From Halolamina litorea (GTDB lineage Archaea; Halobacteriota; Halobacteria; Halobacteriales; Haloferacaceae), in assembly GCF_026616205.1 (NCBI RefSeq), contig NZ_JANHGR010000002.1:310001-374000 (forward strand): a stretch of DNA of 64,000 nucleotides, written 5' to 3'. The notes beneath the pieces are model-generated. The model had not been told where the DNA came from. It did not search any database and saw only the letters and a list, made by a program, of their open reading frames with translations. Numbering within the stretch: position 1 is the first letter of the stretch; every line of letters begins with the position of its first letter. Of the stretch, positions 23,490 to 24,978 are shown in pieces. The position numbers and the translations under genes are program-made.

Positions 23490-24389
23490 TCAGAGCCCGC
23501 GGACGCGGACGCTCCAGAAGTCCCGGAACGCCGTCTCCAGCGCTTCCTCGGGCTCGCCGGTGGCGTCGACGCGCGCGGTGGTGTCCGCAAGGTCACGGAG
23601 TTCGCCGAGCACGCTGCGCTCGCCGACGATCACGACCCGGTCGGCGTCGCCGGCGTGTGCCTCGACGGTCGCCGCGGCTTCCTCCAAGTGCTCCTCGATC
23701 TGGGCGTCCCGGCGGCGCTCGAAGCGGTCCTGCGAGAAGCCGCCCTTCGAGTGTTCGTTCATCACGTCGCTCTCGAACCCCGCGAACTCCACGCGCTCGC
23801 CGTCCTCGTAGACGCCGAGGGCGAACCGGTCCGAGCGGACGAGCGCGAAACAGAGCCGGCCCGTCGGGCCGACCCACTCCGGGTCAACCCGGAACCCGTC
23901 GTCCCACTCGACGAAGGGCTCGGGCTCCACCGGGAGCGAGAGCGCGGTGGCGACGAGGCCGGCGTCGTCTGCACAGACCAGACACGGCGCCGCCCGCGAG
24001 ACGAGCGGCGCACGGTCGCCCAGCGTCTCCCGGACCGGGTCGGGCAGGTCGCCGTCGTCGACGAACGCCGTCAGCGCGCCCTCCCGGCCGGCGTCGACGC
24101 TCCGGAGCCGGTCGGCCACGGCGCCGACGCGGCCGCCGCTGGCGGTCTCCTCGTGCCGGTAGGTCAGGTCGGCGTCGCCGTCGCCCTCGGCCCGCGAGAG
24201 CCGGTCTTCGAGTTCGGTGATCCGGTCTTCCAGCTTGTTGACCTCGCGTTCGGCGTCCTGCCGGGCGCTGACGGCCTCCGCACGGCTCTCCTTGGCTGAT
24301 TCGGCCTGTGCCTGCAGGCTCTCACACTCCTCCTCGAGTTCCTCGATTCGCTCCTTCAGGCGGGCGCGGCCCAGCAGGCGGTCGAGCAT
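23490..24389 (-). CDS. Vms1/ANKZF1-type (VLRF1) peptidyl-tRNA-cleaving ribosome-rescue protein
   Basis: A 299-residue protein. A coiled coil at about 8-68 precedes an eRF1-like VLRF1 domain (about 125-290). The diagnostic loop is KGGFSQDRFERRRDAQ at about 215-230, equivalent to the catalytic loop with conserved Gln in yeast Vms1 and human ANKZF1. Those proteins cut the CCA end of peptidyl-tRNA on stalled 60S ribosomes. DRVVIVGERSVLGEL matches an aRF1-like strand-helix. There are no ankyrin repeats or zinc finger. The archaeal function is inferred. The ATG at 24389 has a TATA-like CTACAAA about 26 nt upstream. Confidence 0.82.
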   Translation of the reverse strand: MLDRLLGRARLKERIEELEEECESLQAQAESAKESRAEAVSARQDAEREVNKLEDRITELEDRLSRAEGDGDADLTYRHEETASGGRVGAVADRLRSVDAGREGALTAFVDDGDLPDPVRETLGDRAPLVSRAAPCLVCADDAGLVATALSLPVEPEPFVEWDDGFRVDPEWVGPTGRLCFALVRSDRFALGVYEDGERVEFAGFESDVMNEHSKGGFSQDRFERRRDAQIEEHLEEAAATVEAHAGDADRVVIVGERSVLGELRDLADTTARVDATGEPEEALETAFRDFWSVRVRGL

Positions 24390-24429
24390 ACCGAACCCGC
24401 GGAGGGGCAACGGTTTGTAGCTTCTGGGC

Positions 24430-24564
24430 TCACTCCTCGTCGTCGAGGTGGAGCAGCTGCATCGACTCCCGGATGTGGTACCGAACCTCCCGATCCTCGG
24501 CGAGTTCGAGCGCCGCGCGCAGTTGCCGCTCGATACTCGTGTTCACCCGTTGGCGTTTCTCCAT
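24430..24564 (-). CDS. small conserved haloarchaeal protein (44 aa)
   Basis: A 44-residue helical protein, MEKRQRVNTSIERQLRAALE then LAEDREVRYHIRESMQLLHLDDEE. The amphipathic, charge-patterned sequence and the strong minus-strand TATA-like box at 24585-24592 make it a convincing real gene. The function is unknown; it may be a DNA- or protein-binding helix-rich factor. Confidence 0.75.
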   Translation of the reverse strand: MEKRQRVNTSIERQLRAALELAEDREVRYHIRESMQLLHLDDEE

Positions 24565-24636: not shown

Positions 24637-24978
24637 TCAGGCGGCGTCAGCCGGCCGCCACCCCGCGTACTTGAGCAGTTGGCCGGCGCGCTCGGGTCGC
24701 GCCAGCAGCACCTCCCGTCTGTCGGGCAGTCCGTCGTCGACCAGCGGCTCCGGTACGGTGAGCGTACCGGCCGGCACGTCCTCGGCGCCCCGGACCGGGA
24801 AGTGTGTTCCGTCGAGTTTCATCACGAGCGGGGAGTCGAGCCGTTCGATGCCCTCGCTCGCGCCGTAGAGCTGTCGGTTGACCGCCTCGTGGTCCTCGAC
24901 GTTGAGCGCGGCCCGCTCCTCGCCGGGTTCGACGTACAACACGCCCAGGTAGTAGCCGCTTGAGAACTGCTCGAACAT
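24637..24978 (-). CDS. conserved haloarchaeal protein (DUF5802-like)
   Basis: A 113-residue protein starting MFEQFSSGYYLGVLYVEPGE, then HEAVNRQLYGASEGIERLDSPLVMKL. This matches my memory of the haloarchaea-specific DUF5802 family, but I cannot check it. There is no catalytic motif, membrane helix or metal cluster. The TATA-like box at 25010-25017 is about 35 nt upstream of the ATG, implying a short leader. Confidence 0.78.
   Translation of the reverse strand: MFEQFSSGYYLGVLYVEPGEERAALNVEDHEAVNRQLYGASEGIERLDSPLVMKLDGTHFPVRGAEDVPAGTLTVPEPLVDDGLPDRREVLLARPERAGQLLKYAGWRPADAA

Follow-up and report, generated by a model that had tools for sequence, protein, structure and literature searches.

What does the gene at 23490-24389 of this Halolamina litorea DNA encode, and how far does its product resemble the eukaryotic release factor Vms1/ANKZF1? 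The window, which means the whole stretch of 64,000 nucleotides that was analysed (contig NZ_JANHGR010000002.1, positions 310,001 to 374,000), had been given a sequence-only reading, in which an archaeal ribosome-rescue nuclease of Vms1/ANKZF1 type was proposed at this locus. Judged by its sequence, the encoded protein belongs to aVLRF-1, the archaeal family among Vms1-like release factors (VLRF-1 clade). Our analysis makes it fairly probable that aVLRF-1 works on large subunits as a peptidyl-tRNA releasing factor that depends on neither a codon nor a GTPase, and the likely role of the archaeal family is to free unfinished proteins from stalled ribosomes. Overall, the earlier interpretation kept its Vms1-like (VLRF-1 clade) assignment, its coiled coil and its invariant Gln; its evolutionary claim holds in part, and its Rqc2 partnership drew no support from co-occurrence.

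The window gene and its family

The gene (23490..24389, minus strand) is an intact frame, open from ATG to stop and encoding 299 amino acids (aa) plus stop. The 25 homologue rows of the 26-row alignment (A1) had 51-89% identity to the window protein in the same frame, so this is a real gene. The start motif MLDxLLGR was conserved, and a longer frame from a TTG at 24410 was not needed. The plasmid collection gave no match to query P0001.

Residues 178-297 of the window protein matched Pfam acVLRF1 (PF18859; E 3.3e-35, 121.6 bits, cut-off 27.1), which is far beyond chance and bore out the eRF1-like domain of the sequence-only reading. The matches to baeRF_family10 (E 3.6e-12, 47.2 bits) and eRF1 domain 2 (eRF1_2, E 0.011, 16.5 bits) were weaker, whereas this genome's own aRF1 (L053, which has GGQ, NIKS and domain 3) scored 150.9 bits for eRF1_2 and 54.1 for acVLRF1. 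PF18859 stands for acVLRF-1 of actinobacteria and chloroflexi, which was thus the best Pfam match and has the GGxSQ motif in common with the window protein (PMC6514570, in the part available), but the score for NCBIfam NF041024 was 46.1, under the cut-off of 125.

Burroughs and Aravind 2019 divided the VLRF-1 clade into four families and named the archaeal one aVLRF-1 (PMC6514570; this paper is cited here from the part of its text available to us). In that description the family has no Pelota domain, its stop-codon-binding domain is preceded by a long coiled coil, and the GGxSQ motif was given as a feature of aVLRF-1 and acVLRF-1 (PMC6514570). We found the GGxSQ loop and the coiled coil before a stop-codon-like domain, and no Pelota domain, in the window protein, which like the published family is archaeal; no difference from the features given in that paper's text was found. 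The family is therefore already known; as an annotation, the assignment of the window gene to it is both correct and useful. Our search of the open-access literature yielded no experimental work on archaeal members, which fits the earlier remark that the protein is little studied. What is added here are the missing stop-codon motifs and GTPase-docking domain, the distribution, and the co-occurrence with NFACT and DUF5802.

In a tree of middle domains, 28 aVLRF-1 rows were split from 4 aRF1 rows with 100/100 on both sides. This tree was rooted at the midpoint, carried a long-branch warning from the program and included no bacterial or eukaryotic VLRF-1; L088, L103, L217 and L218 were left out of the 36 rows chosen, and L102 was counted as aRF1. 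The origin of the VLRF-1 clade was placed in archaea, but the eukaryotic Vms1 was derived from a bacterial family, mainly of Bacteroidetes, and was called distantly related to aVLRF-1 (PMC6514570, available part). So the earlier claim that the reaction predates eukaryotes holds in part: the archaeal origin of the clade agrees with it, but Vms1 was not traced to aVLRF-1.

Domain layout and predicted structure

The whole AlphaFold2 model (26 sequences) had a mean predicted local distance difference test score (pLDDT) of 90.3, and its 299 aa were fully taken up by a helix, a domain like the eRF1 N domain and a middle (M) domain. Residues 2-68 (24186..24386, minus strand), starting with MLDxLLGR, formed a single predicted coiled-coil helix; residues 1-68 contained no proline, and D3, L5, G7 and L11 were invariant in 26/26 rows of the haloarchaeal alignment. 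The N termini of 21 non-halobacterial relatives were likewise charged and helical-looking, as judged by eye only. Ankyrin and zinc-finger families were both missing from the 25 Pfam families listed (67 had an E up to 10), so the earlier idea that a coiled coil stands in their place was upheld. The eRF1 middle-domain fold and a conserved Gly/Gln loop are thus shared with Vms1/ANKZF1 (eVLRF-1), but the Rei1-type zinc finger and the ankyrin part were lacking among the families listed, and the N terminus was one helix.

Residues 79-173 (23871..24155, minus strand) were an alpha/beta region in the model, and alignment to eRF1 indicated a reduced version of its N (stop-codon) domain. Its stop-codon motifs NIKS and YxCxxxF were found in none of the 26 haloarchaeal rows and in none of the 21 other archaeal relatives. 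VIA-align placed model residues 84-292 onto eRF1 13-272 (5lzu_ii, Z 12.0, root-mean-square deviation (rmsd) 12.1, 203 residues). The highest Z against the N and M domains of eRF1 was 12.7 (3e1y_A, 5lzv_ii), and the matches spanned 202-207 residues with an rmsd of 12-16, which we read as a different predicted angle between both domains.

The eRF1 middle domain, which has an RNase H fold, was assigned to residues 177-298 (23496..23861, minus strand) from the Pfam match and the structural match to an aRF1. When this domain was compared alone with VIA-align, aRF1 8hku gave Z 11.5 and rmsd 2.5 over 114 residues, and Pelota 3wxm_B gave rmsd 2.2 over 103 residues. Only 75-87 residues followed the loop in the 26 rows, which is too short for a third (Pelota/GTPase-docking) domain, and eRF1_3 was not among the 25 Pfam families listed. 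The N and M folds were like those of aRF1/eRF1, also in a profile match to 3agk (E 4.4e-5), but NIKS, YxCxxxF, GGQ and domain 3 were all missing from the window protein.

In a Foldseek search against the PDB, the first 31 rows were eRF1, aRF1, Balon and Pelota chains (E 2.3e-8 to 6e-4). Yeast Vms1 on the 60S subunit was matched as well, as expected from the sequence-only reading, but at rank 36 (6r84_R, E 2.2e-3) and rank 44 (6r87_R, E 1.1e-2). Balon is a hibernation factor according to PDB titles, and its chains matched the two-domain fold above Vms1 (8v9k_z, E 3.2e-6; 8v9l_z, Z 11.9 over 207 residues), so we considered whether aVLRF-1 could be a Balon-type hibernation or protection factor, occupying the A site but catalysing no reaction. 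We regard this as quite improbable, because most baeRF families were described as having no Gln and a variable loop length (PMC6514570, available part), whereas the catalytic-type loop and its Gln were invariant in the aVLRF-1 rows aligned.

The GGxSQ loop

The motif HSKGGFSQDRFERR (residues 213-226) lies within the middle domain and contains the GGFSQ loop (residues 216-220; 23730..23744, minus strand), in which the Gln220 codon is at 23730-23732. All 26 haloarchaeal rows had GG[FW]SQ, and all of them carried it in the longer form GG[FW]SQ.R[FY]E; G216, G217, S219, Q220, R222, E224, R225 and R227 were invariant in 26/26 rows. The loop core was also invariant in the wider alignment, where GG[FW]SQ was found in 18/18 rows. 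The conserved Gln was therefore exactly at residue 220, where it had been put before. The likeness to the catalytic loop of Vms1 held for the Gly/Gln loop as such, but the GGxSQ form is nearer to aVLRF-1/acVLRF-1 than to the GGSQ of yeast Vms1.

In yeast Vms1, Q295L and G292A strongly impaired release, and the Gln and Gly of GGSQ were needed for full activity (PMC5989216, in the part available). It has also been debated which bond is cut. If aVLRF-1 cut the tRNA at or near its CCA end and not the ester bond, the peptide would be left with CCA nucleotides. The domain fold is the same as in Vms1, and Kuroha 2018 and later work reportedly favoured cleavage near CCA. The eukaryotic protein ANKZF1 was claimed to act as an RNase (Kuroha 2018, as cited in PMC6514570), but this claim was said to rest on a missing di-glycine and not to be needed (PMC6514570, available part), and the GGxSQ loop keeps its Gly and Gln. 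So we consider cleavage of the tRNA unlikely for aVLRF-1, and the label "nuclease" is contested.

Distribution of aVLRF-1

By score, without every one being read, aVLRF-1 was present in about 280 of the 292 Halobacteria genomes sampled. PF18859 itself matched 292/292, but this tally overstates presence because aRF1 also matches PF18859 and contributed to it. The remaining 12 Halobacteria had only a weak best PF18859 match (E 2.2e-18 or weaker). Among these 12 weakest genomes, the family profile had no match in 10, and in the other two the partial matches were GGQ proteins of aRF1 type. The gene was present in 8/8 further genomes, which included the weakest-scoring of the rest. It was absent from all eight sampled genomes of genus g39 (G044, G073, G157, G208, G235, G249, G252, G255) and from both of genus g67 (G183, G276), while these genomes retained NFACT and DUF5802. 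Single-genome absences could come from assembly gaps. The natural losses in two genera suggest that aVLRF-1 is dispensable in some backgrounds, and g39 and g67 are possible natural knockouts.

In a sample of 148 genomes of the phylum, 63 had profile matches, and about 54 were left after aRF1 was removed (L102 and L103 were read as aRF1, and seven more were judged alike by frame length and partial match). These about 54 consisted of 24 Halobacteria and about 30 of the 124 others. In a scan of the named collection, a relative was detected at 506 loci; the 80 of them that were returned included Methanosarcina, Methanococcoides, Methanothrix, Methanoperedens, ANME-1, Methanomicrobium and one Altiarchaeales record.

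Proposed mechanism and the Rqc2/NEMF homologue

In the mechanism that we favour, aVLRF-1 would act on a large subunit, or on a ribosome whose A site is empty, while peptidyl-tRNA is still bound there. It would enter the A site, and this entry would need neither a stop codon nor a GTPase. Gln220 would be placed in the peptidyl-transferase centre, and the nascent chain would then be released in a Gln-dependent way, as inferred from the family. The coiled coil may serve as an anchor or a dimer contact, replacing the zinc finger and the VCP-interacting motif (VIM) of Vms1. This would be an auxiliary quality-control step and not core termination, because this genome also has an aRF1, and aVLRF-1 is missing from two of the genera sampled.

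Several points weigh against this mechanism. The chief caution at the sequence level is the position of the Gln: in an ungapped alignment, Gln220 is shifted by two residues past eRF1's catalytic Gln (GGFSQ versus GGQ), and a Gln occurs at that position in some aRF1s too (GGQSQ in L102), so a catalytic role of Gln220 is only assumed. In yeast, deletion of S294 shortened GGSQ to GGQ, with loss of VMS1 function and a strong defect in release (PMC5989216, available part), which means that loop spacing matters. eRF1 and Balon stood above Vms1 in the Foldseek ranking, co-occurrence with NFACT was uninformative, and both the activity and the ribosome binding of aVLRF-1 are what we infer from its relatives and its predicted fold.

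The co-occurrence also bears on a narrower form of the same explanation, in which aVLRF-1 is dedicated to archaeal ribosome-associated quality control (RQC) and, like Vms1, stops the tailing by Rqc2/NEMF. A NEMF/Rqc2 homologue (NFACT, PF05833) was present in the same genome, which agrees with the partner named in the sequence-only reading, and in 148/148 genomes of the phylum sample. But NFACT was also present in 12/12 haloarchaea and in the phylum-sample genomes without aVLRF-1, which makes the link neither necessary nor specific, and prokaryotic VLRF-1 proteins were called standalone (PMC6514570, available part). Since NFACT occurred in every genome tested, with or without aVLRF-1, co-occurrence gives a dedicated partnership no support; joint action is neither supported nor excluded by it. 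We therefore hold the dedicated role to be possible but rather doubtful. The end of tailing in bacteria was called unknown by a 2021 review (PMC8012679, in the part available). A more speculative proposal, which we think somewhat unlikely, is that aVLRF-1 supplies the release step missing from a minimal, ubiquitin-free archaeal RQC: NEMF/Rqc2 would tail the chain on the split 50S subunit, the coiled-coil-anchored aVLRF-1 would release it without codon or GTPase, and the genera that lost the gene would use another hydrolase. Should the release activity be demonstrated, haloarchaea, which include genetically tractable ones, would be a simple system for studying peptide release from stalled large subunits.

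Gene neighbours

The upstream neighbour is a DUF5802 gene (24637..24978, minus strand, 113 aa; PF19118, E 9.9e-43). DUF5802 was on the same strand and less than 700 bp upstream of aVLRF-1 in 56/69 haloarchaeal genomes, a set that was not random, since nearly half were top-scoring loci of mainly one family. This adjacency was promising, but DUF5802 was found in 289/292 Halobacteria, among them all 12 that lack aVLRF-1, and aVLRF-1 was present in the three without DUF5802 (G021, G129, G204). Because DUF5802 was not lost with aVLRF-1, it was rejected as a partner and treated as synteny only. Among 14 control genomes it was found in Haloferax volcanii only. DUF1611 was downstream in 38/69 loci, of which set only 42 had at least 1500 downstream bases, and it was taken as synteny as well. 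A possible 44-aa open reading frame (ORF) lies between DUF5802 and aVLRF-1 (24430..24564, minus strand); besides the loci of its own genome, tblastn with E <= 1e-3 found it only in L034 and L035, two of the genus, among the loci compared.

In the 80 loci outside Halobacteria, no neighbour cluster occurred in more than 20, barring aVLRF-1 itself and antisense frames. The largest was a methyltransferase-like frame in 20/80 loci, which we take to resemble the RlmE/FtsJ rRNA methyltransferase and which gives a weak hint of a ribosome link.

COG2433/DUF460 and further aRF1-like proteins

A COG2433/DUF460 protein of the same genome (L054:169-2178, minus strand; G000:C1 near 78283; homologues in alignment A2) matched acVLRF1 weakly. 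Its model had two RNase H-like domains (matches at 4-135 and 247-365), where one RNase H domain only was reported (PMC3985635, in the part available). Between them was a domain with a conserved GG loop (n=27: GGWSQ 17, GGWRQ 6, GGWSE 2, GGWHQ 1, GGSSE 1). The predicted fold of this loop domain was similar to residues 125-226 of bacterial RF2 (1gqe, Z 9.9, rmsd 2.3, 82 residues), which are presumably domain 2 and not the GGQ domain. A profile comparison aligned little besides the loop and a helix (58% probability, E 9.9e-5), and a PDB sequence search with COG2433 gave no significant match. With an RF2-like fold of the loop domain, COG2433/DUF460 was unsupported as a relative in the eRF1 superfamily.

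Some haloarchaea had aRF1-like GGQ proteins that may be additional to a standard aRF1: L086:821-1960 (plus strand), L088:778-1992 (plus strand), L087 (minus strand, 380 codons), L217 (plus strand, 500 codons) and L218 (plus strand, 507 codons). NIKS was kept in L086, L087 and L217, and none was seen in L088 and L218. These five proteins are possibly specialised release factors.
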